A DNA stretch of 64,000 bases from positions 248,001 through 312,000 of the forward strand of contig NZ_JAAIVF010000002.1 in the NCBI RefSeq assembly GCF_029589495.1. The letters are read 5' to 3'. Positions 13,402 through 34,545 of this stretch are shown piece by piece. The stretch comes from Speluncibacter jeojiensis (GTDB taxonomy: Bacteria > Actinomycetota > Actinomycetes > Mycobacteriales > Mycobacteriaceae). Position 1 is the stretch's first letter; each line of letters starts with the position of its first letter. Below the pieces are notes generated by a model. It was not told the DNA's origin. It saw only the letters and a program-made list of their open reading frames with translations, and did not search any database. Made by a program: the position numbers and the translations under genes.

Positions 13402-13512
13402 CTGGTCACCTGCGATTCACCGGCGAAGCCAAGCCTACGCCCGCGGTGCACCGCGATCACCCGGACCGAATTGGTAAGCGCGACGTGTCGAGCCTGATCG
13501 GCGGCAGACAAA

Positions 13513-14484
13513 CTACCGCACGAGGGAGTATCCCGATCCCGAGGGTTCGTTGCCGCCCGGACCCGGAGGCGTTCGGCAGATGGTGCGTGTCGCTATGGCC
13601 AGGATGTCGCCCGCAGGTCCCCGCCAGCGGGTACCCCGCCGCCACACCGCATGCAGAACCCGTGTCAGATCGATCTCGGCCAGGGGCACCTCGACCAGTC
13701 TGCCGTCGTGCAGCTCCTGGCGGACGGTCAGCTCGCTGAGCACGGCTGCGCACTCGCCCGCACTCACCGTCACCTTCACTGCGGTATTCGAATACAGCTC
13801 GATCGCCGGTTCGACCAGAGATTCGCCGACAGCCTGCTGCAGCGTCTCGCGCGTTCCGGACCCACCCTCTCTGGATGCCAGCGGCAGCGTGGCCAGTTCC
13901 TGACGTGACACAGGTCTGCGACGCCGTGCCAGGCGGTGCGATGGCGCAACCACAAGCACGAGCCGATCCTGGGCCACTTGCCGGCTGCGTAAATCGCTGG
14001 GCACGGTGGGTGATTCGATGAAGCCGAGGTCGATCTCCCGCGCGCGGAGTGCCGCAACCACCTCACGCGAGTTGGCCACCCGCAGGTGCACCTGGGGCTG
14101 ACCTTCCCCGCAACGCCTGAACGTGGAAATCCACGCCGGAACGAGGTACTCCGCCACAGTTTGACTTGCCCCGATGGTCACGTTGTCAGCAGCGTGCGCC
14201 GTCAGCGCCCTGGCGCCGACCAACAACGCGTCGGCGGCATCGACGACGCCCCTGGACCAGTCGGTCACCATCCTGCCGTGCACTGTCAATTTCGCCCCGT
14301 GGCTGAGACGGTCCAGCAATTCCAAACGCAGTTGGCCTTCGAGGACCTTGATCCGTCTGCTTGCCGCGGGCTGGCTGATCCGTTCCGCTCGCGCGGCAGC
14401 AGAAATGCTGCCGCGATCGGCTACCAACACCAGCAGTCGCAACGCGCCGAGATCAATTTCCGGACGGAAGTCTTCCCTCATCAT
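13513..14484 (-). CDS. LysR family transcriptional regulator, divergent from YeiH-type exporter
   Basis: About 323 residues: N-terminal helix-turn-helix (LVLVADRGSISAAARAERIS, then QPAASRRIKVLEGQLRL) and a two-lobed effector domain. The reading frame opens at an ATG at 14511, but an ATAAC-N5-GTTAT box covers that codon, so I prefer the adjacent ATGs at 14484/14481, preceded by AGGTG. It is divergent from the YeiH-family exporter at 14583; such exporters are commonly paired with LysR (YeiE/CysB-like) regulators. Probably activates that gene. Confidence 0.85.
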   Translation of the reverse strand: MMREDFRPEIDLGALRLLVLVADRGSISAAARAERISQPAASRRIKVLEGQLRLELLDRLSHGAKLTVHGRMVTDWSRGVVDAADALLVGARALTAHAADNVTIGASQTVAEYLVPAWISTFRRCGEGQPQVHLRVANSREVVAALRAREIDLGFIESPTVPSDLRSRQVAQDRLVLVVAPSHRLARRRRPVSRQELATLPLASREGGSGTRETLQQAVGESLVEPAIELYSNTAVKVTVSAGECAAVLSELTVRQELHDGRLVEVPLAEIDLTRVLHAVWRRGTRWRGPAGDILAIATRTICRTPPGPGGNEPSGSGYSLVR

Positions 14485-14509
14485 GGGCACCTGATACCTG
14501 TCTATTGTC

Positions 14510-14524
14510 ATAACAGTTGGTTAT
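14510..14524. promoter_or_regulatory. LysR box ATAAC-N5-GTTAT
   Basis: A dyad with arms ATAAC and GTTAT fits the T-N11-A LysR-binding pattern. It sits in the roughly 100-bp divergent gap between the LysR gene and the exporter gene, 59 bp before the exporter start, where a LysR activator would act on both promoters. Confidence 0.5.
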
Positions 14525-14582
14525 GGGCCTGCAATCGATATGTGGCTACCGCAAGCCGTAATTCCGATCGAGGGTGGAAATC

Positions 14583-15680
14583 ATGCACCCGAACATCACA
14601 CCTTCGCGACATTCAGCAGCGGCAAGGCGGCCCCCCGCAACAGCCCCAACCCCGATGTCCGCACTCGCGAAGCTGACCGCGCACCTGCCGGGTGTGACGG
14701 TTGCAGTCGTGATCGCTGTGGGCGCGACCCTCGTCGGAAAGGCATTTCCACTGGTTGGCGGGCCGGTGACAGGCATCGTCGCCGGTGTTGTGATCGCGGC
14801 GCTGGTCAAGCCAGGACCCCGGTTCCAACCAGGCATCAAGACGGCCGGCAAGTTCATCCTGCAGGTGTCGGTAGTGATTCTCGGAACCCAACTCTCACTG
14901 CTCCAGGTGATCCGTGTCGGCGTCAGCTCGCTGCCGGTGATGCTCGGCACGTTGCTCGTATGCTTGGTGGCCACCTATCTCATCGGCAGATGGCTGGGGA
15001 TCGTCGGTGACCTGCGCACGCTCATCGGGGTGGGTACCGGCATCTGCGGCGCATCGGCGATCGCCGCCGTGACCCCGGTGATCGGCGCCGCCGAGGTGGC
15101 GGTGACCTATGCCATCTCGACCATCTTCCTGTTCAACATTGCAGCGGTGCTCGCGTTCCCGATGATCGGACACGCACTCGGGATGGGCCAGCACAGTTTC
15201 GGCCTGTTCGCCGGCACCGCGGTCAACGACATGTCGTCGGTCGTCGCGGCCTCGACGACGTACGGCTCCGCCGCCGCCAACTACGCCGTCGTGGTCAAAC
15301 TGACCCGAACCCTGTTGATCATCCCGATCTGCCTGGGGCTCGCCGCGATCACCGGGCGCAAAGCGCGCACCGACGCCACCGCAACAGAGCAGCCGGCGAA
15401 GTCCCGGGTTCAAATCCACCGCCTGGTGCCCTGGTTCCTCATCGGGTTTCTGATCCTTGCCGCCGCCAACACCGTCGGACTCGTCCCTGCCTCGACCCAC
15501 CGCGGCCTGGCCGAGGCGTCGGTCTTCCTGATCACCGTCGCCCTGTCCGCCATCGGTCTGTCCACCGACCTGCCCGGGCTGCGTCGCACCGGACACCGCC
15601 CGCTCATCCTCGGCGCCGCCCTATGGGTGATCGTCACGCTCACCTCCCTCGGCCTCCAGGCCGTCTCCGGGATGCTGTAA
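14583..15680 (+). CDS. YeiH/YadS-family putative sulfate exporter
   Basis: About 365 residues with ten or so hydrophobic segments. The order VGGPVTGIVAGVVIA, VILGTQLSLLQVI, GVGTGICGASAIAAVTPVIGA and GTAVNDMSSVVAAS is characteristic of the conserved YeiH (PF03601) membrane family, often labelled putative sulfate exporters. The ATG at 14583 has GAGGGTGG five bases upstream; a GTG at 14574 does not have room for a ribosome site. Paired with the divergent LysR gene and ended by a strong hairpin. The transported species is not experimentally settled for most of the family. Confidence 0.85.
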   Translation: MHPNITPSRHSAAARRPPATAPTPMSALAKLTAHLPGVTVAVVIAVGATLVGKAFPLVGGPVTGIVAGVVIAALVKPGPRFQPGIKTAGKFILQVSVVILGTQLSLLQVIRVGVSSLPVMLGTLLVCLVATYLIGRWLGIVGDLRTLIGVGTGICGASAIAAVTPVIGAAEVAVTYAISTIFLFNIAAVLAFPMIGHALGMGQHSFGLFAGTAVNDMSSVVAASTTYGSAAANYAVVVKLTRTLLIIPICLGLAAITGRKARTDATATEQPAKSRVQIHRLVPWFLIGFLILAAANTVGLVPASTHRGLAEASVFLITVALSAIGLSTDLPGLRRTGHRPLILGAALWVIVTLTSLGLQAVSGML

Positions 15681-15792: not shown

Positions 15793-16638
15793 TCAGCAGA
15801 GACCCAGTGCGGCGGCCAGCGCCCCCAGAGTCGGCAGTGGGTCATCCTGAACCGGAAGTGCTTGAACTGCAACGTGATCGGCTCCAGCCGCACGATGGTC
15901 CCGGAGTCGCCCCGCGAGGTGGTCGGCGTCGCCGTGGGCGACGAGGGCGTCGACGACCCGATCCGTGCCGTCACTATCCAGTTCTTCCGCGGCGAAACCG
16001 GTCCGCTCCAGGTTCGCTCGGTAGTTGCGCCGCTTGAGGTACGGGTTGGCGACCGTCGCGCGGGCGATCGCGCGCGCCGCATCGACATCGGTGGAGAGCA
16101 CGACCTTCTGTTGGGGGGCGAGCAACGCGTCCGAGCCGAGAGTCTCCCGCGCCGACCGTGTGTGCTCCGGAGTCGTCAGGTACGGGTGCGCGCCGGCGGC
16201 CCGAGCCGCTGACAGTGTGAGCACCTTCGGTCCCAGCGCCGCCAGCACGCGTCGGTTCACCGGGACGCCCTCGCGGTCGAGCACGTCGAGATACTCGACC
16301 AGAGCGCTGTAGGGCCTTCGGTACCTGTCCCCGGCCATCTCGGGATGGCCGACTCCCACGCCCAGAAGGAAGCGTCCGGGATACCGCTCCTCGAGTCTCC
16401 GGTAGGACGCCGCAATCGCCTCGGCGTCGGCTGCCCAGATGTTGACGACGCCGGTCGCGACGATTATGCGCTCCGTCGCGTCGAGCAGGCGTTCCGCCAG
16501 TTCTAGATCTGCCGGCGGCGATACACCGACCCAGAGTGTGCCGTAGCCGAGTCTCTCGATCGCCGCTGCCAGATCTGGGAAAAGCCCCTCTGCGTGGCGC
16601 CAGACACCGTACTCGCCCAGCGGCGAAGTGTTCTTCAC
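15793..16638 (-). CDS. LLM class F420-dependent oxidoreductase
   Basis: 281 residues of the luciferase-like monooxygenase TIM-barrel family, in the TIGR03620-like F420-associated branch: GYGTLWVGVSP, RIIVATGVVNIWAADAEAIA and RFLLGVGVGHPE are recognisable. Such enzymes use reduced F420 or FMN to reduce or oxidise small organic molecules. It is the last gene of the long minus-strand cluster, but a 16-bp perfect hairpin separates it from the gene before, so its expression may be partly independent. Substrate unknown. Confidence 0.85.
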   Translation of the reverse strand: MKNTSPLGEYGVWRHAEGLFPDLAAAIERLGYGTLWVGVSPPADLELAERLLDATERIIVATGVVNIWAADAEAIAASYRRLEERYPGRFLLGVGVGHPEMAGDRYRRPYSALVEYLDVLDREGVPVNRRVLAALGPKVLTLSAARAAGAHPYLTTPEHTRSARETLGSDALLAPQQKVVLSTDVDAARAIARATVANPYLKRRNYRANLERTGFAAEELDSDGTDRVVDALVAHGDADHLAGRLRDHRAAGADHVAVQALPVQDDPLPTLGALAAALGLC

Positions 16639-16691
16639 GTCTTCACGCCTCCTTCTCGTGTCGTCGACTGCCGAGTGCAGATGCTGGAACG

Positions 16692-16729
16692 CGACTCAGC
16701 TCCGGTCCGTACAGACCGGAGCTGAGTCG
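16692..16729 (-). terminator. 16-bp perfect stem-loop after the 36-aa microprotein gene
   Basis: CGACTCAGCTCCGGTC and its exact complement flank the six-base loop CGTACA. It lies nine bases past the microprotein stop and 54 bp before the LLM gene start. It should end or attenuate transcription and protect the short message. Confidence 0.8.
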
Positions 16730-16737
16730 AGCATGTG

Positions 16738-16848
16738 TCAGGCAGACAGTGCCGCGAGACCGACGATGGCGGCCGTTCCACTGAGCAGGCCTGCGCCGAG
16801 GGCGATGTACTTCTGGTAGCTACCGAGCTCGGCGGCGGTGGATCCCAT
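16738..16848 (-). CDS. 36-aa single-span membrane microprotein
   Basis: A small frame with ATG at 16848 and AGGAG seven bases upstream. The peptide begins MGSTAAELGSYQKY and then has a roughly 22-residue hydrophobic stretch from YIALGAGLLSG to the end, enough for one membrane helix with a short charged N-terminus. No cysteine or signal cleavage site. It sits between the CMD protein gene (starts at 17340, ends 16960) and the LLM gene, and is followed at once by a perfect 16-bp hairpin. I do not recognise the family. The good ribosome site, membrane segment and dedicated hairpin argue for a real gene. Confidence 0.65.
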   Translation of the reverse strand: MGSTAAELGSYQKYIALGAGLLSGTAAIVGLAALSA

Positions 16849-16959
16849 GTTTCACTCCTGATTGATAGATGTTGTTGTGCATGCGATTGCATGCGTTGTG
16901 TCGGGCGCGAGACGCGCTGGCGGCGCTCGGGTCCGACCGGTTGTGATCGACATGTGCGG

Positions 16960-17340
16960 CTACCCCTGGCGCTGCGCGGCGAGTTCCTCGACGAGAATCG
17001 GAACGCCGATGTTGCAGGAATGGATTCCGACGACGGTGGCCAGCTTGAGCACCTCGAGGATTTCCTCCGCGGTGACGCCCAGCTCGAGTGCCGCCCGGAT
17101 GTGCCGACGCACACCCGGTGCGTACATGTGGGTACAGGAGGCGTCGACCGCGATGCACAGCAATTCGATGGTCTTCGGCGAGAGGACACCGCTGCGCCAC
17201 GATTGGGTTGCCGTCGCCAGGTACTGCTCGGTCCACTCCGGATCCATCTCCGCGAGCCCGTCCCACAGCGAGTTCCATGAACCTGCAGCACGCATCGTGT
17301 CCACCAGCGTGTCGCGGTGGTTGTCACCGGTTCCAGTCAT
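16960..17340 (-). CDS. Carboxymuconolactone decarboxylase (AhpD-like) family protein
   Basis: 126 residues. The CMD domain is clear: LSPKTIELLCIAVDASCTHM, GVRRHIRAALELGVTAEEIL and VLKLATVVGIHSCNIG. Cysteines are present at LLCIAVDASC and HSCN, but the CxxC of AhpD peroxidases is not, so a decarboxylase or structural role is as likely as redox chemistry. It follows the AMP-ligase gene by 25 bp in the same operon. These proteins often accompany aromatic or beta-keto-acid catabolism; its job here is not defined. Confidence 0.8.
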   Translation of the reverse strand: MTGTGDNHRDTLVDTMRAAGSWNSLWDGLAEMDPEWTEQYLATATQSWRSGVLSPKTIELLCIAVDASCTHMYAPGVRRHIRAALELGVTAEEILEVLKLATVVGIHSCNIGVPILVEELAAQRQG

Positions 17341-17365
17341 CGTCCCACTCCTTACAAACCCAGTC

Positions 17366-18925
17366 TTATGCTGTCTCCCTTGCCAATTCGCGCTTCAGAA
17401 TCTTCCCTGTCGCGGTCATCGGAAGGGTCGTGGTGAACTCGATCGTGCGCGGGTACTTGTAGCCCGCCATCTGCTTACGGCACCAGTCGATCAGCTCGTC
17501 CTCGGTGAGCTGTGCGTTCTGCCGGAGAATGACAAAAGCCTTGATCTCCTCGCCATGACTTTCGTCGGGCACACCGACCACAGCGACGAGCGAGACGGCT
17601 TCGTGAGTCAGCAACACTTCCTCGACTTCGCGCGGATAGACGTTGAATCCGCCACGGACGATCATGTCCTTGGCCCGGTCCACGATGTAGTAGAAGCCGT
17701 CCTCGTCGACTCGGGCGAGGTCTCCGGTGCGAAGCCACCCGTCGCGCAGCACCTCCGCGGTGGCATCGGGACGGTTGTGATAGCCCTTCATCACGTTGTG
17801 GCCGCGTAGTACGAGCTCCCCGACCTGGCCCACCAGGTCGATTGTATTGCCCTGCTTGTCAACGAGTTTGGCATCGATGCCCCAGACCGGGATACCGATG
17901 GAGCCAGGGCGTGAGGGCCGCTCTGGGTCGCTGAAGACGGCCAGCGGCGAGGTTTCGGAGAGCCCGTATCCTTCGAGGATCTGGACGCCGAACCTCTCTG
18001 CGAACCGAGTGTGGATCTCCACCGGAAGTGCGGCCCCTCCGGAAATGGCTCGCCGCAGCGTGCGGGCGATCCACTCTGCCTCGACGACGTCGTCGACGGC
18101 ACCCAGCAGCGCCCAGTACATCGTCGGCACACCCGCGAACACCGTAATGCTCTCGTCGATCATCAGCCGTAGCGCCGACTTCGCATCGAAGCGAGCCATC
18201 ATCACCAGAGTCGCTCCAACGGACAGCCCGGCGTTCATGGTCACTGTCTGGCCGAAGGAGTGGAACAGCGGCAGGGTGAGCAGGTAGGTGTCGTGGCGGA
18301 CAGGGTTGCTGTCGAAGAGCCGATTGGCTGTCAGCGCATTGAGCACCATGTTCGCGTGGGTGAGTTCCGCACCCTTGGGATATCCGGTGGTGCCGCTCGT
18401 GTAGAGGATGACAGCGACTTCGTCGGGGCCGCGCACCGCGGACTCGAAGCGGTCGGGAAGGTCCTCGAGCGCTGCGGCGAGATCCTGTGCCCGGGCGGCC
18501 GTTGAGACGGCGGAATCGGCCGGGAGGAGAAAGAACTCACGGCACCCGGTGGCTTGTTCATACGCATCTCGCCCGTACTCGCCGATCGGGAGGTCCTCGG
18601 TGCCCTCGAAGCAGAAGTAGGCCTTGGCTTCCGAATCCTTCAGGTGGTAGGCGATTTCGCGCGCCTTGAGCAGGATGTTGAGCGGCACGACGACGGCGCC
18701 GGCCTTGAGGATTCCGTAGTAGATGATGGGGAATTCCGGAAGATTCGGGCAGGAGAGCGCGACCTTGTCGCCAGGTTCGACGCCCCGCGAGGCGAGGAGG
18801 TTCGCGACCTGGTTCGACCGCGCGTCGAGTTGCGCATAGGTCAGCCGTCGCTCACCGTGCACCACGGCGATCTGATCGGGATACCTGCGGACGGAATCTT
18901 CCAGCAGCACTGACAGGTTGAGCAC
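17366..18925 (-). CDS. AMP-dependent acyl-CoA ligase (FadD-like)
   Basis: About 519 residues from a GTG at 18925. ANL-family motifs are intact: VILYTSGTTGYPKGAEL (P-loop-like), EGYGLSETSP, WLRTGDLARVDEDGFYYIVDR with the hinge after it, and TATGKILKREL holding the catalytic lysine. It would activate a carboxylic acid to its CoA thioester through an acyl-AMP. It lies 35 bp after the CoA-transferase beta gene and before the CMD gene in one direction. The rest of the long frame upstream of 18925 shadows the CoA-transferase gene. Substrate chain length unknown. Confidence 0.88.
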   Translation of the reverse strand: MLNLSVLLEDSVRRYPDQIAVVHGERRLTYAQLDARSNQVANLLASRGVEPGDKVALSCPNLPEFPIIYYGILKAGAVVVPLNILLKAREIAYHLKDSEAKAYFCFEGTEDLPIGEYGRDAYEQATGCREFFLLPADSAVSTAARAQDLAAALEDLPDRFESAVRGPDEVAVILYTSGTTGYPKGAELTHANMVLNALTANRLFDSNPVRHDTYLLTLPLFHSFGQTVTMNAGLSVGATLVMMARFDAKSALRLMIDESITVFAGVPTMYWALLGAVDDVVEAEWIARTLRRAISGGAALPVEIHTRFAERFGVQILEGYGLSETSPLAVFSDPERPSRPGSIGIPVWGIDAKLVDKQGNTIDLVGQVGELVLRGHNVMKGYHNRPDATAEVLRDGWLRTGDLARVDEDGFYYIVDRAKDMIVRGGFNVYPREVEEVLLTHEAVSLVAVVGVPDESHGEEIKAFVILRQNAQLTEDELIDWCRKQMAGYKYPRTIEFTTTLPMTATGKILKRELARETA

Positions 18926-18960
18926 GTTGAACTCGTCTTTCGTCGTGTGATCGCGAGTGG

Positions 18961-19611
18961 CTATGCCAGCGACGCGTCGGTTGCGGACCGGACCTGCGCG
19001 GCGTCCACGCCCGGTGCGCATTCGCGCAGAACCAGTCCGGACTCGGTGACGTCGATGACGCCGAGGTTGGTGATGATCCGGTTCACCACCTGCTGCCCGG
19101 TGAGCGGCAACGTGCATTCCCGAAGAATCTTCGAGCCGCCGGACCGGTCGGTGTGCTCCATGAGGACGATGACGCGGCGGGCGCCGTGGACGAGGTCCAT
19201 CGCCCCGCCCATACCCTTGACCATCGCCCCGGGAACCATCCAGTTGGCCAGGTCTCCGGCCTCGGAGACCTGCATGCCACCGAGGACAGCGACGTCGATG
19301 TGTCCGCCTCGGATCATTCCGAAGCTGGTACTCGAGTCGAAGAACGAGGCGCCCGGGTTGACGGTGACGGTCTCCTTGCCGGCGTTGATGAGATCCGCGT
19401 CGACGAGGTCCTCGATCGGGTAGGGACCGGTTCCGAGGATCCCGTTCTCGCTGTGCAGCGTGACCGCCACATCGTCGGCCAGATGGTTGGGGATCAGCGT
19501 CGGCAGCCCGATACCCAGGTTGACGTACTGTCCCGGACAGAGTTCGGCGGCGGCCCTCGCAGCCATCTGCTGCCGTGTCCAGCCGACAGTCTCGACAATG
19601 GTCGTGGTCAT
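18961..19611 (-). CDS. 3-oxoacid CoA-transferase subunit B
   Basis: 216 residues of the class I CoA-transferase beta subunit. [17 protein letters not shown] and HSENGILG are present; the Glu in SENG is the residue that forms the covalent glutamyl-CoA intermediate. [14 protein letters not shown] and [14 protein letters not shown] are also typical. The ATG at 19611 overlaps the alpha subunit stop (ATGA). With the alpha subunit it should transfer CoA from succinyl-CoA to a 3-oxoacid, best explained here as acetoacetate released by the BKACE enzyme encoded nearby. Confidence 0.92.
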
Positions 19612-20384
19612 GCGGCCGTCTCCTTCGCCGTCGCGGTCGTACGCCTTTCGATCTGTTTTTTCTGCTTCCCGGTGTGCACGATGCGATCGACGAATATCCC
19701 GGGCAGGTGGACCTGGGCGGGATCCAGTTCGCCCGGCTCCACCAAGTTCTCGACCTGCGCGATGCAGATCCGGCCGGCCATCGCGGCCAACGGGTTGAAG
19801 TTCATCGCGGCCTTGTTGAACACCAGGTTGCCCTCGGTGTCGCCGGCGTGGGCGTGGACCAGCGCGAAGTCGGCGGTGATTGCGCGTTCGAGCACGTAAC
19901 GACGGTCTGCCCACACTCCGTCGAACTCGCGGACCTCCTTTCGCGGCGACGCCACAGCGACCGTTCCGTCACTGCCGTAGCGCCACGGGAGCCCGCCCTC
20001 GGAGATGAGGGTGCCGACCCCCGTGGGCGTGAAGAACGCCGGGATGCCGGCGCCCCCGGCGCGCAGCTTCTCAGCGAGGGTGCCCTGCGGCGTCAACTCC
20101 ACCTCGAGCTCTCCGGACAGGTACTGACGGGCGAACTCTGCGTTCTCCCCCACGTACGACGCCGTCACCCGTCGTATCCTTCTCTTGGCCAACAGGATTC
20201 CGAGCCCGTGCCCGTCGGTTCCGCAGTTGTTGGAGAACACCTCGAGGTCGGTGGCATCCCCATCGGCGATTGCCGCGATCAACACATCGGGGATTCCGCA
20301 CAGCCCGAACCCGCCCACCGCAAGTGAGGCGCCCGATGCGATGTCTGCCACGGCCTCGTCTGCGAAGCCACACACCTTGGTCAC
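19608..20384 (-). CDS. 3-oxoacid CoA-transferase subunit A
   Basis: 258 residues, slightly longer than usual. [19 protein letters not shown] is the alpha-subunit glycine-rich CoA site, followed by [38 protein letters not shown] (in two parts) and [13 protein letters not shown] near the C-terminus. Translationally coupled at both ends: it overlaps the hydrolase stop upstream and the beta start downstream by four bases. It supplies half of the heteromeric transferase. Confidence 0.92.
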
Positions 20385-20968
20385 GACGCGATCTCCCCGC
20401 GTGCACCGACCAGCTCCGCAACGAGCTCTTCGGCCTGTGGCCAGTACCCGTAGCCGGAGGCCGGATTGAGATGCCCGACCTCACCGAGATCGACCAGACG
20501 GCTGCCCCACGCCTCGGCCATTCCCGTCACGCGCCGGAAGCCGGCGAGTGGATCGTTGGTGCTGGCCGCCACGATGCTCGGGAACGGTAGGCGGCGCCGG
20601 GGAATGGGGTTCCACGCGCCCGCTTCGATCTCGTCGAAGCTCGGGTGTCCCTCTGGCAGCGGAAGTTCCATGTCGGGCGGAGTCGCCAGCAGCGCACCGC
20701 GCACCTGCCGGGTCGGCCGCTGCGCCCAGTGGACGGTGGTGATCACGCCGGCGCTGTGCGCGACCAACACGATCGGTCCGTCGATCGAGGTGATGACCTC
20801 GTCGAGCGCAGCGACTCGTGCGGCGCGACTGAGCCGGTCACGCTCGAGCGGAGGTACCGTCCGCACGTTGTCGAGGCGGTCGGCGAGCAGGGTCTGCCAG
20901 TGTTCGGCGACGTGATCGCGCAGTCCGGGCACGATCACCACGGTCGGCGAAGTCGAAGCGGTGGTCAT
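20381..20968 (-). CDS. RBBP9/YdeN-family alpha/beta hydrolase
   Basis: About 195 residues. VVIVPGLRDHVAEHWQ opens the fold; VLVAHSAGVITTVHW gives the nucleophile elbow (AHSAG variant), GALLATPPDME follows, and a C-terminal VGHLNPASGYG supplies the histidine. These features match the RBBP9/YdeN serine hydrolases, whose substrates are mostly unknown. An ATG at 20968 with AAGGA upstream is taken as start. It overlaps the CoA-transferase alpha gene by four bases, so it belongs to the same message; it might open a lactone or ester intermediate. Confidence 0.85.
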   Translation of the reverse strand: MTTASTSPTVVIVPGLRDHVAEHWQTLLADRLDNVRTVPPLERDRLSRAARVAALDEVITSIDGPIVLVAHSAGVITTVHWAQRPTRQVRGALLATPPDMELPLPEGHPSFDEIEAGAWNPIPRRRLPFPSIVAASTNDPLAGFRRVTGMAEAWGSRLVDLGEVGHLNPASGYGYWPQAEELVAELVGARGEIAS

Positions 20969-20999
20969 TCTCAATTCCTTGCTTTTGATCGAAGGTTGT

Positions 21000-22331
21000 T
21001 CATCGAAGGCTGTACGCCGCGGACTCGTTGAGGGCGTTGAATCGGCGCACGCCGGCGGGATAGAGGCGCTTGCCGATGACGAGCGCGACGATCGCGGCCA
21101 CGTACGTCAGCGGGGCGAGCTCCAATGCCCTCAGCAGCCCGAAGTGGTCGGCGAGGATTCCGACGACGAAGGGGCCGAGCGCCAGCCCGAGCAGATTGTT
21201 GGCCACCGTGAGAGTCCCCATCGCGGAAGCTCGCACCGTGGTGTGGGTGAGATTGGCGACCATCGCGGCGGTGGGCCCGGATGAGCCGGCGGAGAAGAAC
21301 GCGCCCAACCCGATGAGCACCATCGAGAGCGCCCCGGATGCCAGCCAGAAGCCGACGGGCAGGCAAACCAGCGAGATCGCGCAGAACACCACCGCCGTGG
21401 TCCACTTTCGCGACATGTCGGCCCGACCGATGCGGTCGGTGATGATGCCGCAGACCACCATGCCACTGCCTACGAGCAAGACGAAGATTGCGGCGACGCC
21501 GGCCGCCTTCGCCGTACCGAGGTGGTGGTAGCGGTTGAAGTAGCTCGGCATCCAGGCGAGCAGCACGGCCGCGGTGAACATCTGCAGACCGCCGCCGATG
21601 TAGGCACACAGGACCGAGGGGTTTGTGTACAGACTTGACAGGGGTGCTCGGAGCCTGCGGGGGGCGTCGACGCAAGCGGCGGAGGGCTGATTCTGGTCGA
21701 CTGCATACCGGGCCAGCCTGCGCTCGTTGACAACTGCGCGGAACAGTGCGACGAGGATCAGGCCGAAGACCGCCATGGCCGCGAACGACCACCGCCAGCC
21801 GAGGTGCACGGCGAGCAGCCCGCCGAGAGCGACGCCGACCACCGAGCCGAATGATCCGCCGGCCATGAAGGAGGCGCCCATGGCGGCATGCACGCGGGGT
21901 GCGAAAACACTCAAGACCACCGCGATGCCGACGCTACCGTATGCAGCCTCACCGACACCGACAAGGAACCGCGCCCACAACATCTGGTCGAAACTTGCGG
22001 CCACGGCGCAGGCCAGAGTCGCCAGGCTCCACAACACCGCCATCAGGGTCAGGCTTCGCACGCGACCCCACCGGTCCGCGACCAGCGACAGCGGCAGGGT
22101 GAGCAGGCCGACCATCAACGCCACGATGCTGTTCAGGGACGCGAGATGCGAGTCTGACAACGACCATTCGGATTTGAGAATTGGGAACACGGCGCTGAGC
22201 ACCTGCCGAGACATGTAGTCCGACAGCAACAACGCGAAGGTCAGTGCGAACACGAGCCAGGGATAGAGCCTGGACTTCCGTGATCGGGTGGACGGCATGC
22301 GGTTTGCGTCCACGGTAACGTGCATTGCCAC
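21000..22331 (-). CDS. MFS transporter
   Basis: 443 residues with twelve predicted membrane segments. LLLSDYMSRQVLSAVFPILK in the first segment is the organic-acid/aromatic symporter-like pattern, and LVADRWGRVRSL is the MFS loop 2-3 motif. The GTG at 22331 has GAGGAG five bases upstream; an ATG two codons later is possible. It lies between BKACE and hydrolase genes and probably imports the substrate for this cluster. Confidence 0.87.
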   Translation of the reverse strand: MAMHVTVDANRMPSTRSRKSRLYPWLVFALTFALLLSDYMSRQVLSAVFPILKSEWSLSDSHLASLNSIVALMVGLLTLPLSLVADRWGRVRSLTLMAVLWSLATLACAVAASFDQMLWARFLVGVGEAAYGSVGIAVVLSVFAPRVHAAMGASFMAGGSFGSVVGVALGGLLAVHLGWRWSFAAMAVFGLILVALFRAVVNERRLARYAVDQNQPSAACVDAPRRLRAPLSSLYTNPSVLCAYIGGGLQMFTAAVLLAWMPSYFNRYHHLGTAKAAGVAAIFVLLVGSGMVVCGIITDRIGRADMSRKWTTAVVFCAISLVCLPVGFWLASGALSMVLIGLGAFFSAGSSGPTAAMVANLTHTTVRASAMGTLTVANNLLGLALGPFVVGILADHFGLLRALELAPLTYVAAIVALVIGKRLYPAGVRRFNALNESAAYSLR

Positions 22332-22441
22332 GGTGTCTCCTCGTAGGTGGCGGACTGACGACGATCGACCCGATGGGCCGGCGGGATGGGGCGGGCCGGG
22401 ACGCGCGATGGGGTCGCGTCCCGGCCCGGGTAGGGAGACGA

Positions 22442-23494
22442 TCAGGCGTGCTGGGTGAAGCCGACCTGGCCGGGCTTACGGTTCGGCGCGTAGCCGAGCT
22501 TGGCCAACGTCTCGTCGGCGTCGGCATAGGTGGTGCCGATCCGATAGATGTCGCGGGCCTCCTTGCCGGTCGCGACCTCGCGGCCGAGTTCGCCGGCGAT
22601 CCGCACGAGCTGCTGAATCTGCTGAACCGAGGTGAACTTCTGGCCCTTACGGCCCCAGATGGTGTCCTCGTTGCCGCAGCGGGTGTGCAGACCCATCGCG
22701 ATGGCCATCGCGTTGACGGGGAGCACGCTGCGCATGAGCGTCTCGAGGGTCAGGCACGCGCCGTCAGGAACACGCTGGATGAAGTTCATGATGTTGTACG
22801 GGTTCGGTCCGTCGAAGCCGCCGCCGATGCCGACCCAGGTCAGATTCAGCGGGCCTGTGTAGACGCCGCGGCGGATGAGTCGCTCGACGGTCTCGAGCTG
22901 CGGGATCGACGAAAGCTGGAAGTGCGGCTGGATTCCCGCGGCCTGCAGCCTGCGCAGGTGCTCGGCGACCCACTCCGGACCCGCGGGCACGGTCATCTCC
23001 CGATATGCCGCCGCAAGTTCCGGCCGTTCCATCGACGTGCCGGCGATGTCGTCGGCGGTCATCAGCTCCATGATGTTCATCTGGCTGGTGTTGATCGCGA
23101 TGGTGACCTGGTCGGGCTTCGGGTCGAGCTCGGCGAGCATGTGCCGGGTGTCATCGGAGAGCCATTTGGCATCCGCGCCTTCACCTTCCGGTGCAAACGA
23201 GATCGAACCACCGACCTGCAAGATCATGTCCGGGACGGCTTCCCGCAACCCGGCGAGGAGCTCGTTGAACTTCGACAGGCGCTTGCTGCCCTTGCCGTCG
23301 AGCTCGCGGACGTGGATGTGCAGCACGGTCGCGCCAGCCTCGTAGCAGTCGACCGCCTGCTGCACGTGCTGCTCCATCGTCAGCGGCAGGTCCTCGCGGA
23401 AGTCGTCCGGCTCCCACTCGGGGCCGTAGGGCGCACAGGTGATGACCAGCTTGTCCTGGGTCTCGGGGAAGAGCGCGTCGTCATGGAAATGCAT
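22442..23494 (-). CDS. BKACE family beta-keto acid cleavage enzyme (DUF849)
   Basis: 350 residues. KLVITCAPYGPEWEP, GATVLHIHVRELDGKGS and GLHTRCGNEDTIWG are the conserved active-site and zinc-ligand regions (HIH, and the Glu of GNED) of the BKACE/3-keto-5-aminohexanoate cleavage family. These TIM-barrel enzymes condense a beta-keto acid with acetyl-CoA and release acetoacetate plus a shortened acyl-CoA. The neighbouring 3-oxoacid CoA-transferase could activate that acetoacetate. The keto-acid substrate is not predictable; the family is known for uncharacterised specificities. Confidence 0.88.
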   Translation of the reverse strand: MHFHDDALFPETQDKLVITCAPYGPEWEPDDFREDLPLTMEQHVQQAVDCYEAGATVLHIHVRELDGKGSKRLSKFNELLAGLREAVPDMILQVGGSISFAPEGEGADAKWLSDDTRHMLAELDPKPDQVTIAINTSQMNIMELMTADDIAGTSMERPELAAAYREMTVPAGPEWVAEHLRRLQAAGIQPHFQLSSIPQLETVERLIRRGVYTGPLNLTWVGIGGGFDGPNPYNIMNFIQRVPDGACLTLETLMRSVLPVNAMAIAMGLHTRCGNEDTIWGRKGQKFTSVQQIQQLVRIAGELGREVATGKEARDIYRIGTTYADADETLAKLGYAPNRKPGQVGFTQHA

Positions 23495-23542
23495 TGTCTT
23501 ACTCCACTTCTGAGGTGAGGTGTTGGATGAACAAGGAAGGGC

Positions 23543-24445
23543 TCAGAATGGGCGGTCGCCGATGATGCCGGCCCGTTCCATCTTTCGGACCGCCGGCCAG
23601 TAGTCCTGGACCGCGTAGTGCTGCGTGGAGCGGTTGTCCCAGATCGCCACACTGTTCTCCGACCAGCGCCAGCGCACCTGATAGTCGGGAATCGAGGCCT
23701 GACTGATCAGATGGTTCAGCAGGTTCGAGGCGCCGGGCGCGAAGTCGATTCCATGGCGCACGTTCTCATCAGTGTGGTAGTTGACGAAATGCGTGGTGAA
23801 GGAGTTGACGAACAGAACCTTCTCGCCGGTCTCAGGGTGAGTGCGCACCACCGGGTGCTCGGCGTCGGGATAGGTCTCCTTGAGCGCGTGGCGATCTTGG
23901 ATCGGCAGCCGGGCACCGAAGGTGGCCTCGATGCTGTGCCGGGCCCGCAGACCGTCGATCTGGTCCTTGACCTTCTGAGGGAGATTCGCGTACGCAGCCG
24001 CCATGTTCACCCAGATCGTGTCGCCACCGATCGGCGGTGCCTCGACGCAACGCAGTATCGCGCCCATCGGCGGGGTCTCGCGCCAGGTGCCGTCGCAGTG
24101 GAAGGCGTTCTCGAAGTGCTCCGGCGCACTATCGAGATCTTTGTAGATCCGCACCAGCCCCGGATACTCGGGATCACTGCCGAGCCTCGGGTGATCCTCC
24201 AGCGGCCCGAACCGCTCGGCGAGGGCCACGTGTTGGGCCTGGCTCATGTCCTGATCCCGCAGGAAGAGGACCTTGTACTTCAGCAACAGCGACTTCAGCT
24301 CCGCGAACAGCGCATCGTCACGCGAAACCTCACCGAGGTCAACGCCGAACAGTTCCGCACCGATGTTGCAGGTCAGTGGTTGCGCCCTCATCGGCGATCG
24401 AAACGTGGAGGGCCGATCCGAGGCGGTGTAAGTGGTCGTACTCAT
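23543..24445 (-). CDS. TauD/TfdA family Fe(II)/2-oxoglutarate dioxygenase
   Basis: 300 residues. The metal-binding HxD is in AFHCDGTWRE and the distal His in NRSTQHYAVQDYW; the Arg for 2-oxoglutarate is expected in the following RKMERAGI. Members hydroxylate taurine, alkyl sulfates, phenoxyacetates or carnitine-like compounds next to a carboxylate or sulfonate. It sits between the quinone oxidoreductase and BKACE genes, so it probably performs an early oxidation of the cluster substrate. Length and motifs are normal for the family. Confidence 0.9.
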   Translation of the reverse strand: MSTTTYTASDRPSTFRSPMRAQPLTCNIGAELFGVDLGEVSRDDALFAELKSLLLKYKVLFLRDQDMSQAQHVALAERFGPLEDHPRLGSDPEYPGLVRIYKDLDSAPEHFENAFHCDGTWRETPPMGAILRCVEAPPIGGDTIWVNMAAAYANLPQKVKDQIDGLRARHSIEATFGARLPIQDRHALKETYPDAEHPVVRTHPETGEKVLFVNSFTTHFVNYHTDENVRHGIDFAPGASNLLNHLISQASIPDYQVRWRWSENSVAIWDNRSTQHYAVQDYWPAVRKMERAGIIGDRPF

Positions 24446-24478
24446 TGCGCTCCCCTATCGTGACAAGATTTCCGAACT

Positions 24479-25453
24479 TCAAACCGAGAAGACCGAGGAG
24501 CCGACACTGCGGCCGGATTCCAGGTCACGATGGGCCTGCACCGAGTCCGCGAGCTCGTACCGCTGGTTGATCTGGATGCGGATGCGCCCGGATCCCACGT
24601 GATCGAACAGCTCGCCGGACAGTTCTGCACGCTCGGCTGGGTCGGCGATGTAATCAGCCAGGGCCGGTCGGGTGACGAACAGCGAGCCCTTCACGGCGAG
24701 CTGCATGGCGTTGATCGGCGGGATCGGTCCGGACGCGGTTCCGAAGCACACGAGCAGCCCGCGTCGCGAGAGGCAGTCCAGTGAGGTCTCATAGGTCGTC
24801 GCCCCGATGCTGTCGTACACGACGGGGACGCCCTCGCCGTCCGTCAGCTCACGGACGCGGGCGGCCACATCCTCGTGGCGGTACAGGATGACCTCGTCGC
24901 AACCGTATGCGCGAGCGGTCTCGGCCTTCTGCTCGGTCGAGACCGTGCCGATCACCTTGACACCCAACAGCTTTGCCCACTGGCAGAAGATCAGTCCCAC
25001 GCCACCGGCCGCGGCGTGCAGCAGCACGGTGTCGCCGGCCCTCAGCGGATGGATGCGTCGCAGCAGATAGGAGGTGGTCAGCCCGCGCATCGTCATCGCC
25101 GCGGCGGTGTCGAAGGGGATGTTCTCCGGCAGCTTGATCAACGACTCGATGGGCATCACGCGCTCGGTGCTGTAGGCGCCCAGGGGGCTGCCGGTGTAGG
25201 TGACCCGGTCGCCCTCCGCGAACTCTGAGACCCCCGGTCCGACCGCCTCGACGATCCCGGCGCCCTCGACGCCCATGCCGGCCGGCAACGGGGCCGGATA
25301 CATTCCGGTGCGGAAGTAGGTGTCCGCAAAGTTCAGGCCGACCGCCTCGTGACGGACCCTGACCTCGCCCGGGCCGGGGGCGCCGACCTCGACGGACTCC
25401 CAGCGCATGACCTCCGGACCGCCGGGTTCATAGAAGCGGATGGCGTGTGCCAC
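24479..25453 (-). CDS. Quinone oxidoreductase (zeta-crystallin-like, MDR family)
   Basis: About 324 residues from a GTG at 25453 with GAGGAG six bases upstream. HEAVGLNFADTYFRTGMYP and GMGVEGAGIVEAVGPGV are the N-terminal MDR signature without the zinc-ligand pattern, and VLLHAAAGGVGLIFCQWAKLLG is the NADPH-binding site. It reduces quinones or enones with NADPH. It is the first gene of the long minus-strand cluster and is divergent from the AraC regulator at 25695. Role in the pathway is unclear: it could reduce an enone intermediate. Confidence 0.88.
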   Translation of the reverse strand: MAHAIRFYEPGGPEVMRWESVEVGAPGPGEVRVRHEAVGLNFADTYFRTGMYPAPLPAGMGVEGAGIVEAVGPGVSEFAEGDRVTYTGSPLGAYSTERVMPIESLIKLPENIPFDTAAAMTMRGLTTSYLLRRIHPLRAGDTVLLHAAAGGVGLIFCQWAKLLGVKVIGTVSTEQKAETARAYGCDEVILYRHEDVAARVRELTDGEGVPVVYDSIGATTYETSLDCLSRRGLLVCFGTASGPIPPINAMQLAVKGSLFVTRPALADYIADPAERAELSGELFDHVGSGRIRIQINQRYELADSVQAHRDLESGRSVGSSVFSV

Positions 25454-25652: not shown

Positions 25653-25682
25653 CGGGACACCTCAGATGTCATTTCGGGACAC
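25653..25682. promoter_or_regulatory. Direct repeats CGGGACAC, 22-bp period
   Basis: CGGGACAC occurs at 25653-25660 and again at 25675-25682, two helical turns apart, in the 241-bp gap between the quinone oxidoreductase and AraC genes. Direct repeats at this spacing are typical AraC-family operators. The second copy abuts the ribosome site of the AraC gene, suggesting autoregulation. Confidence 0.45.
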
Positions 25683-25694
25683 AGGAGAGACGCC

Positions 25695-26729
25695 ATGAAA
25701 CCTCTGGCCCGCTATGCGGCGCTGAACGGCTACGTCGACCTGAGCCGGTCGCTCGGGCTCGATCCGGGCCCGCTGATGAGGCAAATGGGATTGGACCCCG
25801 CGGGTCTGAGCGTGCAGGATCGCTGGATTCCCGCCGCAGCGGTCGCGCGACTGCTCGAGAGGTCGGCGGCAATTTCGGGGCACGAGGACTTCGGACTGCG
25901 GCTGGCGGAATTTCGTCGCCTCTCCAACCTCGGGCCGTTGAGCCTGGTCATCCGGGAAGAGCCCGATGTGCGCAGCGCACTGCGAGTGCTTGGCCGGTAC
26001 GAACACACATACAACGAGGCCCTGCGGACACGGCTGTCCGAAGCTGACGGAACGGCGACCATCCGGGTAGTCCTGGAACTCGGGGAGCAAGTGGACGTCC
26101 GACAGTCCGAGGAGTTGGCCGTGGCCGTAGTGCACCGCCTCCTGTGCGGCTTTCTCGGACCAAGGTGGAAGCCGATGGCCGTCTGCTTTGCGCACCGGCC
26201 GCCGGCAGACCCGGCCACCCATCGGAAGGCCTTCGGATCGGCACTGATCTTCGATCATCAGTTCACCGGGATCACCTTCCCGGCAAACGATCTCGATGCC
26301 CCGAACAAGATGTCCGATCCGCTGCTGCGGCCCTACACCCAGCAGGTACTCGATTCCCTCGAGCCACCGAAAGATGCGACCACGGCAGATCGGGTCCGCG
26401 AAGTGATCGAACTGCTGCTGCCCACCGGACGGTGCTCGATCGAACAAGTCGCCCGGAGCCTCGGCGTCGACCGCAGAACCATCCACCGACGGCTGACCGA
26501 CTCGGCCGAGTCCTACTCCTCGATCCTCAACGACACCCGCGTCGACCTCGCCCGGCGGATGGTGGAAAATCGAAGATACTCACTGACCGAGATCGCCGAC
26601 CTGTTGTCCTTCTCGGCGCCCAGCAACTTCTCGCGATGGTTTCGCGCGCAATTCGGATGCAGCCCCCAAGTTTGGCGAAACGCGCGACAGCAGCGGCACC
26701 GGACCCAGGTGATATCGAGCGGTCCCTGA
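25695..26729 (+). CDS. AraC family transcriptional regulator (arabinose-bd N-domain)
   Basis: About 344 residues. The N-terminal two-thirds match the OruR/ArgR-like ligand domain of AraC regulators (LARYAALNGYVDLSRSLGLD; FGLRLAEFRRLSNLGPLSLV). The C-terminal 100 residues carry two helix-turn-helices: SIEQVARSLGVDRRTIHRRL and YSLTEIADLLSFSAPSNFSR. ATG at 25695 is preceded by AGGAGAG. It is divergent from the 15.8-25.5 kb catabolic cluster and is its likely activator. Confidence 0.88.
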   Translation: MKPLARYAALNGYVDLSRSLGLDPGPLMRQMGLDPAGLSVQDRWIPAAAVARLLERSAAISGHEDFGLRLAEFRRLSNLGPLSLVIREEPDVRSALRVLGRYEHTYNEALRTRLSEADGTATIRVVLELGEQVDVRQSEELAVAVVHRLLCGFLGPRWKPMAVCFAHRPPADPATHRKAFGSALIFDHQFTGITFPANDLDAPNKMSDPLLRPYTQQVLDSLEPPKDATTADRVREVIELLLPTGRCSIEQVARSLGVDRRTIHRRLTDSAESYSSILNDTRVDLARRMVENRRYSLTEIADLLSFSAPSNFSRWFRAQFGCSPQVWRNARQQRHRTQVISSGP

Positions 26730-26851: not shown

Positions 26852-27793
26852 ATGCCGCTGAGTTCTCACATGCCAGGGATTGCCGCGTTCGAAGTTCTTC
26901 TTGCGGTCGCCAGAACCGGCAGCCTCGGCGCCGCGGGCCGGGAACTGGGACTGACACAGCAGGCGGTGTCGGCGCGACTGAACTCGATCGAAGCCCAGAC
27001 CGGCGTCCAGCTTGTGGTCCGCACCGTGCGCGGCTCGACCCTCACTCCCTCAGGGGCCGTCGTTGCGCAGTGGGCAGCCCAACTACTGGAAGTCGCCGAG
27101 CACGTGGACGCCGGACTTGCGTCGCTTCGAACCGAAAGCCGCAAACGGGTGAAGGTGGTGGCCAGCCTGACCATAGCCGAACAGCTCATGCCTCGATGGC
27201 TGGTGTCCTGGCAAGCTGCAGCAACACGTCTCGGCCACAATGCCCCTGAGGTGATCCTCACGGCCGAGAACAGCGAACACGCATTACTGGACATCTGCAA
27301 CGGCGTTGCGGACCTCGGGTTCATCGAAAGCCCTGTCATACCCAGGGCTCTGCACAGCCGCGTTGTCGCCCATGACGAACTCGTGCTGATCGTCTCGCCC
27401 GACCACAAGTGGGCTCGCCGGTCGAAGGGCGTGAGCGCTTCCGAACTCAGCCAGACCCCACTTGTCGCACGTGAGCGGGGATCCGGAACCCGCGATTCAC
27501 TGACCGCAGCTCTGCGCAGCCGTCTCGGCGAGGCGATGGAACAAGCAAACCCGGTGCTGGAATTGTCCTCGGCGGCGGCCGTACGCGGCGCGGTCCTCGC
27601 CGACGCCGGGCCTGCGGTGATGAGTAAGTTGGCGGTGACAGACGATCTCGCGGTCGGAAGGCTCTGTGTCGTCGCGGTGCCAGAGCTGAATCTCAGCCGC
27701 GAACTGCGGGCTGTCTGGCAAGGCGGGCGCACGCCGCCCGCCGGCCCGGCACGTGACCTGCTCAGTCACATCGGGCAACACCGTCGCACGTAA
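26852..27793 (+). CDS. LysR family transcriptional regulator
   Basis: 313 residues with the winged helix-turn-helix in the first 65 (FEVLLAVARTGSLGAAGREL, then LTQQAVSARLNSIEAQTG) and a LysR effector domain after it. Its gene follows the AraC gene by about 120 bp and converges on the FAD oxidoreductase gene, with only 11 bp between their stops. It resembles the LysR at 13513 in effector-domain sequence (both have ARERGSGTRDSL/SREGGSGTRETL-type stretches). Target not evident; no divergent partner. Confidence 0.85.
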   Translation: MPLSSHMPGIAAFEVLLAVARTGSLGAAGRELGLTQQAVSARLNSIEAQTGVQLVVRTVRGSTLTPSGAVVAQWAAQLLEVAEHVDAGLASLRTESRKRVKVVASLTIAEQLMPRWLVSWQAAATRLGHNAPEVILTAENSEHALLDICNGVADLGFIESPVIPRALHSRVVAHDELVLIVSPDHKWARRSKGVSASELSQTPLVARERGSGTRDSLTAALRSRLGEAMEQANPVLELSSAAAVRGAVLADAGPAVMSKLAVTDDLAVGRLCVVAVPELNLSRELRAVWQGGRTPPAGPARDLLSHIGQHRRT

Positions 27794-31095: not shown

Positions 31096-31127
31096 TCCAC
31101 CATCGACGAACTGAAAGCAGACGTTCC

Positions 31128-31239
31128 GTGACAGAAGCCGTCATCGTCTCCACCACCGGCTCGCCGATCGGCCGGGCCGGCAAGGGAGTGCATCGGCGGT
31201 GGCCAAGGCATGGCTGCCATCTTCGAAAGGCTCACCTGA
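31128..31239 (+). pseudogene. Collapsed thiolase (acetyl-CoA acetyltransferase) remnant
   Basis: A GTG at 31128 starts a thiolase N-terminus (VTEAVIVSTTGSPIGRAGKG). The next bases switch frame to a thiolase C-terminus, CIGGGQGMAAIFERLT, ending in TGA at 31237-31239. About 360 codons between are missing and the two ends are out of frame, so this is a large internal deletion of a normal fadA-like gene. It sits between the acyl-CoA dehydrogenase and SDR genes, exactly where a beta-oxidation operon would carry one. The remnant can still be translated as a short nonsense peptide, keeping coupling to the next gene. Confidence 0.85.
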
Positions 31240-31240
31240 T

Positions 31241-34531: not shown

Positions 34532-34545
34532 TCACTGCAACCGCG
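34501..34545. repeat. Three tandem 15-bp repeats at the iniC-like stop
   Basis: CTCAYTGCAACCGCG-type units occur at 34501, 34516 and 34531 (the first has CTCACC). The stop codon of the iniC-like gene (34534-34532) lies in the third copy, and readthrough frames would add AVAVS repeats, so slippage would shift the end of the protein. Confidence 0.7.

Follow-up and report, generated by a model that had tools for sequence, protein, structure and literature searches.

A recurrent BKACE-TauD operon in Speluncibacter jeojiensis and other bacteria: a candidate route from organosulfonates to sulfite and acetoacetate

A 64,000-nt window of the Speluncibacter jeojiensis genome (GCF_029589495.1, contig NZ_JAAIVF010000002.1, forward-strand positions 248,001 to 312,000) contains an operon, divergent from an AraC-family regulator gene, in which a TauD-type 2-oxoglutarate/Fe(II) dioxygenase is paired with a beta-keto acid cleavage enzyme (BKACE) of the DUF849 family. 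The pairing recurs in 104 of the 115 loci compared, and we give about an even chance to the reading that the unit degrades an organosulfonate to sulfite and acetoacetate, with the TauD-type enzyme preferably acting first. All of its enzymes come from known families; what appears new is the gene combination, together with the DUF849 subfamily. A more specific version is less likely than not: oxygenolytic desulfonation may be linked with a new DUF849 subfamily whose members cleave the beta-keto acid so formed, or one that still bears its sulfonate, such that from a secondary or carnitine-like sulfonate a single operon would yield sulfite, an acyl-CoA, and acetoacetate. The alternatives discussed below share some elements, and the likelihoods that we attach to them need not add up to one.

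In the series of reactions that we infer, an MFS protein would take up the compound, and the AraC-family protein would sense either this compound or an intermediate common to clusters without TauD, at an operator made of a 22-bp direct repeat. The TauD-type enzyme would hydroxylate the sulfonate-bearing carbon, with loss of sulfite. Were the sulfonate beta to a carboxylate (probably in a beta-sulfocarboxylate), a beta-keto acid would form directly, a route that would explain why there is no aldehyde dehydrogenase among the ten operon genes. The DUF849 enzyme would transfer an acetyl unit to acetyl-CoA, yielding an acyl-CoA and acetoacetate, and a CoA-transferase, or an acetoacetate-CoA ligase in other lineages, would convert the latter to acetoacetyl-CoA for thiolysis. 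The serine hydrolase may free the acyl group or remove an ester, and a YeiH-type transporter under a YeiE-like LysR regulator would export the toxic sulfite.

Domain scans find all of the genes named in an initial annotation of this region on the minus strand between 15793 and 25453 (Table 1). From position 25453 downward the order is NADPH:quinone-reductase-type oxidoreductase (QOR), TauD, BKACE, MFS transporter, serine hydrolase, CoA-transferase subunits A and B, AMP-forming ligase (AMP-ligase), and carboxymuconolactone-decarboxylase/AhpD-family protein (CMD). Gene spacing is tight: the genes for the serine hydrolase and CoA-transferase A overlap, as do those for subunits A and B. The initial annotation had called this combination under an AraC regulator unusual; comparison of the genome neighborhoods of the BKACE subfamily, which it had proposed, instead reveals a recurrent operon that is not unique to this genome.

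A BKACE scan of the genome_contigs collection yielded 246 relatives, the best 80 of which (85 to 95% identical) supplied loci that were compared by our own open reading frame (ORF) calling and tblastn; these 80 are close relatives and not independent. To them were added 20 further genomic loci (18 of the 20 hits in the family containing genome G436, plus those of G164 and G391 from a survey of the class) and 15 of 24 plasmid loci, the 24 comprising 23 records with a BKACE of at least 60% identity and one at 48%, whereas the others of the 40 records listed reach no more than 30%. BKACE and TauD occur together in 73 of 80, 18 of 20, and 13 of 15 loci, respectively, and this grouping is far above chance. 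Within the 73 TauD-type loci of genome_contigs, QOR, AraC, and MFS genes are each present in 72 and the serine hydrolase in 69, with lower counts for the AMP-ligase (35), CoA-transferase subunits A (33) and B (32), and CMD (31). The same core genes are found in Actinomycetota and in alpha- and betaproteobacteria (Pseudomonadota), and the plasmid loci compared include those of Azoarcus, Cupriavidus metallidurans, Paraburkholderia, Caballeronia, Novosphingobium, and Streptomyces. Because a BKACE of this type (E ≤ 1e-60) occurs in 9 of 394 genomes of the class, that of S. jeojiensis included, and in 20 of 249 genomes of the family containing G436, the cluster is patchily distributed. The initial view of the genes as parts of one pathway stands insofar as they form one AraC-regulated catabolic unit, with the AMP-ligase and CMD as optional members and an LLM/F420 oxidoreductase gene at its edge unlinked.

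The 11 TauD-less loci vary in their makeup. An SDR replaces TauD and QOR in four (L045, L047, L057, and L062), and five others (L016, L022, L026, L164, and L165) have AraC, MFS, CMD, and BKACE genes without TauD or QOR, the MFS proteins of L164 and L165 being merely 35 to 37% alike. L022 and L026 may represent the full cluster in reduced form, since a partial, broken serine hydrolase match remains after their BKACE genes. Many other loci (L041, L042, L056, L059, L065, L077, L078, L131, L149, L150, L157, L158, L160, and L161) encode a second, distant TauD-family dioxygenase (PF02668 in the one example scanned) upstream of QOR or beside the AMP-ligase. In Rhodococcus tukisamuensis (L032:169-4379 and 10938-15218), a run of serine hydrolase, acetoacetate-CoA ligase, and AMP-ligase genes is duplicated and flanks AraC. 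In Caballeronia grimmiae (L114:5641-11998), genes for a Rieske protein and prpB/prpC/acnD/prpF directly follow the cluster, hinting at propionyl-CoA as a product there, a propionate link seen in this one locus. A Pfam scan of 106 of the 163 flanking proteins, from 52 loci and with the separately counted YeiH excluded, returned LysR (6), acyl-CoA dehydrogenase (4), and porin, MarR, and PBP-like proteins (3 each) as the commonest among the 25 families listed of 166.

The 22-bp direct repeat, with two or fewer total mismatches, is present at 66 of the 73 AraC/operon junctions (window included), compared with a mean of 0.26 and a maximum of 2 matches in shuffled sequences, a control whose half-site came from the same sequences. 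With the spacing left free between 15 and 34, it was 22 in 64 of the 66 junctions that have a pair. The S. jeojiensis genome has one perfect copy, and 68 sites with two or fewer mismatches versus 48 for the reversed pattern, suggesting that the window junction is probably the sole target in this genome. The operator also precedes the TauD-less clusters L016, L022, L026, L047, and L057 (not L045), and 14 of the 20 further genomic loci have some match, often between AraC and the unit of AMP-ligase and second dioxygenase, which is thus probably co-regulated; in L149 and L153, it additionally lies before BKACE. Ten proteobacterial loci that were checked (L111 to L114, L116, L120, L125, L126, L129, and L130) lack it, and L119 has a low-complexity match only. 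Given this conservation, independent induction of the genes, which by the initial annotation would refute its reading, appears less likely.

The window BKACE passes the PF05853 gathering score (211 versus 24.8 bits) and falls below the NCBIfam cutoffs for characterized equivalogs (132/382 bits for Kce, 96/430 for dioxohexanoate, and 76/350 for oxoadipate). Its subfamily is sharply separated: among the 40 plasmid records listed, identity to the window protein runs from 48 to 94% and then drops to 30% or less. Residues were counted in 114 distinct BKACE sequences, with survey loci added and duplicates removed. By what we take to be the Kce numbering of the zinc ligands, Arg226, and Asp231, the equivalents of Kce H46, H48, E230, R226, and D231 (H59, H61, E276, R272, and D277) are identical in all 114, and Glu26 is present in 110. 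Two pocket positions differ. The Kce Glu143 site (Q193) is Gln in 108 of 114 sequences and Glu in none, and the Tyr145 site (S195) is Ser in 66, Ala in 32, Thr in 8, Gly in 4, Tyr in 3, and Val in 1. The alignment has a gap at the Kce Ser82-Thr83 pair. Substitution of the active site, which by the initial annotation would refute its reading, has thus occurred in part: it affects these two positions and spares the metal ligands, Arg226, Glu230, and Asp231. The only sequences without Gln at position 193 come from six TauD-less loci (L045, L047, L057, L117, L164, and L165), as if this residue tracked the feeder module. Among other DUF849 proteins (22 rows, 16 distinct), Glu is kept in 15, and the aromatic site holds Phe in 10, Tyr in 5, and Asp in 1; because 15 of 16 keep the Glu and 15 of 16 an aromatic, the joint loss of both marks the subfamily in these alignments. 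A study of BsfD, a DUF849 protein of flavophos biosynthesis, reports the Tyr to be present in every BKACE sequence (PMC12871164), which does not hold for the 16 proteins compared here.

An insertion after strand 3 carries Trp111 in all 114 sequences and, at position 110, Lys in 107, Arg in 3, Glu in 3, and Val in 1. Lys110 was present in 101 of 101 sequences of a smaller alignment and is, on the count of distinct sequences, not invariant. This residue bears on a reverse order of steps, in which the DUF849 enzyme would act first on a beta-keto acid sulfonated on its acyl side to give a sulfoacyl-CoA and acetoacetate, the serine hydrolase would free the sulfo acid, and TauD would desulfonate it, much as in the carnitine route but with a sulfonate where carnitine has its trimethylammonium group. 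We regard that order as quite unlikely. Gln in place of a Glu143 that is nearly constant elsewhere and the basic character of residue 110 in 110 of 114 sequences would suit it, as would the SDR-type clusters (L045, L047, L057, and L062), which fit a beta-hydroxy precursor. In BsfD, an insertion of about 20 residues at the same place likewise carries a basic residue, near the phosphonate (PMC12871164). The recount weakens the argument, as the three Glu and one Val show that not every member needs the Lys, and the placement of residue 110 relative to the substrate depends on a modeled loop with a predicted local distance difference test score (pLDDT) of <50. Moreover, 11 of the 115 loci have a BKACE but no TauD, and there a sulfoacyl product would need another fate. 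The predicted structure (mean pLDDT, 64) has a Kce-type fold, with Kce entries as the best Foldseek matches and cis-epoxysuccinate hydrolases and ObcA as structural relatives; it is too weak for claims about the pocket at loops 23-36, 97-111 (pLDDT, <50), 222-231, and 250-280.

That acetoacetate is formed is suggested by the genes that would activate it. Both CoA-transferase subunits exceed their SCOT/PcaIJ cutoffs (321 versus 243.6 bits for TIGR02428 and 222 versus 128.5 bits for TIGR02429), and subunit B carries what we take to be the SENG motif. In other lineages, a long AMP-ligase occupies the usual place of the CoA-transferase after the serine hydrolase, and the two such ligases tested (L039 and L131) exceed the TIGR01217 equivalog cutoff for acetoacetate-CoA ligase. 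CoA-transferase A occurs in 33 of 73, 1 of 18, and 0 of 13 TauD-type loci from the genome_contigs, further genomic, and plasmid sets, and relatives of acetoacetate-CoA ligase, recognized by similarity, in 3 of 73, 11 of 18, and 2 of 13; the two occur together in no locus among those tallied. In L050, L069, and L073, the CoA-transferase genes lie on the opposite strand with an MFS gene. The exchange of two different activating enzymes for the same job indicates that acetoacetate is probably a real product of the pathway, and the activation by CoA-transferase proposed at the outset gains from it.

The sulfite arm of the pathway draws on the distribution of YeiH. Relatives of this transporter, detected with a profile built from the loci's own sequences, lie near 15 of 73, 3 of 18, and 3 of 13 TauD-type loci (21 of 104) and near none of the 11 TauD-less loci. 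As background, counted with PF03601, the genomes of 61 relatives contain 26 such genes in ~286 Mb (~0.09 per Mb), 3 of which (in G000, G015, and G025) themselves adjoin BKACE; this rate predicts ~0.15 such genes for the 1.61 Mb that the 80 loci span. PF03601 matches occur in 48 of 101 genomes of the G436 family, and among 37 same-family genomes, YeiH is present in 8 of 10 with BKACE versus 9 of 27 without (one-sided Fisher exact test, P of ~0.015, kinship ignored). The YeiH genes form at least two diverged groups in several gene orders: those of the window type in L040, L131, and L157 are 56 to 64% alike, and the other group is ~30% like it. This suggests that the association probably arose more than once, among loci that are not independent. 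The gene run of Novosphingobium ES2-1 continues directly with a "putative sulfate exporter" gene.

The window YeiH passes the PF03601 gathering score (223 versus 24.5 bits) and falls below the TIGR00698 subfamily cutoff (128.1 versus 232.6 bits), and the adjacent LysR protein has YeiE as its best model but scores below that equivalog cutoff (NF040889; 144.9 versus 480 bits). Solved relatives of this LysR are 8sbf, 8sbh, and 7erp, the best ones including proteins deposited as YeiE, and in both LysR proteins of the window, a Glu aligns, at a position obtained by counting, with YeiE Glu145, which discriminates sulfite from sulfate. YeiE and YeiH confer sulfite resistance in Salmonella (PMC12880088), and YeiH is termed a sulfite exporter in Hyphomicrobium (PMC12423496). 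Because YeiH is linked to the TauD-type loci and the YeiE/YeiH pair handles sulfite, the TauD-type enzyme is probably a desulfonating one. Of the substrate classes suggested in the initial annotation, sulfonates are favored by this linkage, and quaternary-ammonium compounds and ethers have gained no evidence.

Members of the TauD family act on many substrates other than sulfonates, and the enzyme could instead hydroxylate or cleave an ether, amine, or carboxylate, with YeiH adjacent for other reasons. We consider such a pathway unlikely, though it retains a real chance. Most TauD-type loci lack YeiH, and two acidic residues, E112 and E290, each identical in all 104 distinct TauD-type sequences, could face a cationic substrate. 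In loci that have no BKACE, TauD relatives lie beside a Cupin_7 protein that resembles 2,4'-dihydroxyacetophenone dioxygenase by annotation, a setting of C-C cleavage. Set against these points, the YeiH linkage is far above background, takes several arrangements, and spans two phyla, and a YeiE-like LysR gene stands beside the window YeiH. The Cupin_7-associated relatives (57 to 61% identical; L125:9010-11714 and L126:7389-9858), paired with an alpha/beta hydrolase as well, perhaps handle a product of the same type by a different route. In L124, a TauD relative without BKACE lies beside an AMP-ligase, an alpha/beta hydrolase, and an MFS gene.

The residues of the TauD-type enzyme (104 distinct sequences) are compatible with desulfonation and speak against taurine itself. 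The Fe triad (H116/D118/H276), the 2-oxoglutarate-binding Arg (R287), and the equivalents of TauD His70 and Arg270 (H85 and R291) are each identical in 104 of 104 sequences, in roles that we take to be those of TauD, where His70 and Arg270 would contact the sulfonate and Tyr73 would lie on the amine side. At the Tyr73 site, Leu (44), Ala (40), or Val (20) is found, the Tyr being lost throughout. The nearest solved structure, 5vn6, was deposited as a taurine dioxygenase. Use of taurine or another ordinary C2 sulfonate to supply sulfur, the remaining genes being unrelated neighbors, would accord with the TauD family name and with taurine dioxygenase as the best NCBIfam model, but the cutoff of that model is missed, Tyr73 is lost in every sequence, no ABC-transporter domain occurs among the ten operon genes, and the co-conserved carbon-catabolic genes would be left unexplained, making this explanation very improbable. 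When individual substrates were considered, taurine was set aside for the lost Tyr73 and the missed cutoff, and carnitine-type quaternary amines were set aside for the exchange of Glu143 for Gln. Sulfosuccinate and 3-sulfopropionate were rejected by reasoning only: their products, oxaloacetate and malonate semialdehyde, are ordinary metabolites that need no BKACE.

Several observations weigh against a pathway from an organosulfonate to sulfite and acetoacetate. The His70/Arg270 pair is not diagnostic, because PlaO1, presumably not a sulfonate enzyme, has both equivalents (RdpA lacks that of His70); the pair is compatible with a sulfonate and is no proof of one. The TauD-type protein falls below the NCBIfam taurine dioxygenase cutoff (NF007104; 232.1 versus 313 bits), and QOR has no clear step, such that any role for it would be conjectural. 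Since pocket residues of the DUF849 protein are changed, its reaction is itself uncertain. No YeiH lies near 83 of the 104 TauD-type loci, and one of the 21 matches (L155, among the 3 of 18) is a fragment. Neither acetoacetate-activating gene is nearby in 37 of the 73 TauD-type loci of genome_contigs, and none occurs in the 11 TauD-less BKACE loci; because of these absences, the source of acetoacetate might be the TauD arm and not BKACE, a weak argument given the few independent types. Finally, the mutual exclusion of ligase and CoA-transferase tracks lineage.

Table 1. Positions of the operon, its operator, and the sulfite-related genes in the 64,000-nt window
Feature	Coordinates	Strand	Evidence
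QOR, MDR/NADPH:quinone-reductase-type oxidoreductase, operon gene 1	24479..25453	-	NF008024, 363 bits, over cutoff
TauD, 2-oxoglutarate/Fe(II) dioxygenase, proposed desulfonating enzyme	23543..24445	-	PF02668, 226 bits
BKACE (DUF849), distinct subfamily, changed pocket (Q193, S195), insertion after strand 3	22442..23494	-	PF05853
MFS transporter, presumed importer	21000..22331	-	PF07690
PF06821 serine hydrolase, proposed thioesterase or esterase	20381..20974	-	PF06821
3-Oxoacid CoA-transferase subunit A	19608..20384	-	TIGR02429, over cutoff
3-Oxoacid CoA-transferase subunit B	18961..19611	-	TIGR02428, over cutoff
AMP-forming acyl-CoA ligase, optional member	17366..18946	-	PF00501; NF004837 over cutoff
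CMD, carboxymuconolactone-decarboxylase/AhpD-family protein, optional member	16960..17340	-	PF02627
AraC-family regulator (Arabinose_bd + HTH_18), divergent from operon, just beyond the initially annotated range	25695..26729	+	Domain scan
Operator, direct repeat TGTCCCG-N15-TGTCCCG, 22-bp period	25653..25681	-	66/73 junctions
YeiH-type transporter, proposed sulfite exporter; ORF from 14574	14655..15680	+	PF03601, 223 bits
YeiE-like LysR regulator, divergent from YeiH gene	13513..14511	-	Best NCBIfam model YeiE, below cutoff

Some gene starts allow alternatives: the QOR ORF extends to 25696, with a probable GTG start at 25453; TauD might start at 24391 instead of 24445; and the AMP-ligase, whose ORF extends to 19117, starts at 18925 or 18946. 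The LLM/F420 oxidoreductase gene at 15793-16638 is probably not part of the system, since it has no relatives in the 80 genome_contigs loci compared and is separated from CMD by ~320 bp. Upstream of AraC are a second YeiE-like LysR gene (26852-27793, plus strand) and a gene for an FAD/NAD(P)-binding protein (27805-28842, minus strand), both retained beside the cluster in L038 (75% and 68% identity). Farther along the window, genes for an acyl-CoA dehydrogenase, an SDR, MaoC, and another SDR lie in a row (29950-33230), forming a separate fatty-acid-like cluster that adjoins a TetR regulator. These are followed by two neighboring dynamin-family GTPases (34532-37851, minus strand), a 1,036-amino-acid protein with no Pfam match at E ≤ 1e-6 (37999-41109, minus strand), and an Hsp70-like protein (41390-43384, plus strand). 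PADLOC at E ≤ 1e-8 gave no match for 37999-41109, 41390-43384, 43394-45934, or 50474-53497.

Organosulfonates are a large pool of soil sulfur and carbon; among surfactants and wastes, they form an important class. If the proposal is true, the BKACE family would gain a functional group, and the operator, the distinct DUF849 subfamily, and the interchangeable acetoacetate-activating enzymes make it directly testable in Rhodococcus, Streptomyces, or Cupriavidus. The C. metallidurans genome paper gives at least six tauD copies and describes the species as thriving on many sulfonates. In searches of the open-licence literature, we found no account of this operon and no pathway that joins TauD-type desulfonation to beta-keto acid cleavage; PMC11961710 and PMC8963497 proved irrelevant to the DUF849 subfamily.

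Four known systems resemble parts of the operon. In the L-carnitine cluster of Pseudomonas, which we take to consist of CdhA/B/C and DhcAB, a BKACE presumably splits a beta-keto acid to an acyl-CoA and acetoacetate, and a 3-oxoacid CoA-transferase and a thioesterase-like step are found close by. Unlike that cluster, the window has a 2-oxoglutarate dioxygenase and an MDR-type oxidoreductase instead of carnitine dehydrogenase (a domain scan of the ten operon genes found no 3-hydroxyacyl-CoA-dehydrogenase-type domain), its BKACE belongs to a separate subfamily with an altered pocket, and the YeiH linkage suggests sulfite. Oxygenolytic desulfonation by TauD-type enzymes, such as the taurine and alkylsulfate dioxygenases, involves the same family, Fe ligands, and anion-binding His and Arg positions; it differs in that the Tyr73 of the taurine pocket is not conserved in the window type, and we know of no such desulfonation that is followed by a BKACE. 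In deoxyribonate catabolism of Pseudomonas simiae (PMC6365646), an SDR makes a beta-keto acid, a BKACE splits it, acetoacetate is separately activated, and MFS transporter genes lie in the putative operon; the available part of that report names no TauD, QOR, or sulfite exporter and places the candidate CoA-transferase elsewhere, as dispensable for growth. Lastly, BsfD resembles the window protein in lacking the Tyr and in having extra residues inserted after strand 3, but it is described as a biosynthetic enzyme whose chemistry on a phosphonate diverges from that of BKACEs (PMC12871164), whereas the setting of the window protein is catabolic and includes acetoacetate-activating enzymes.

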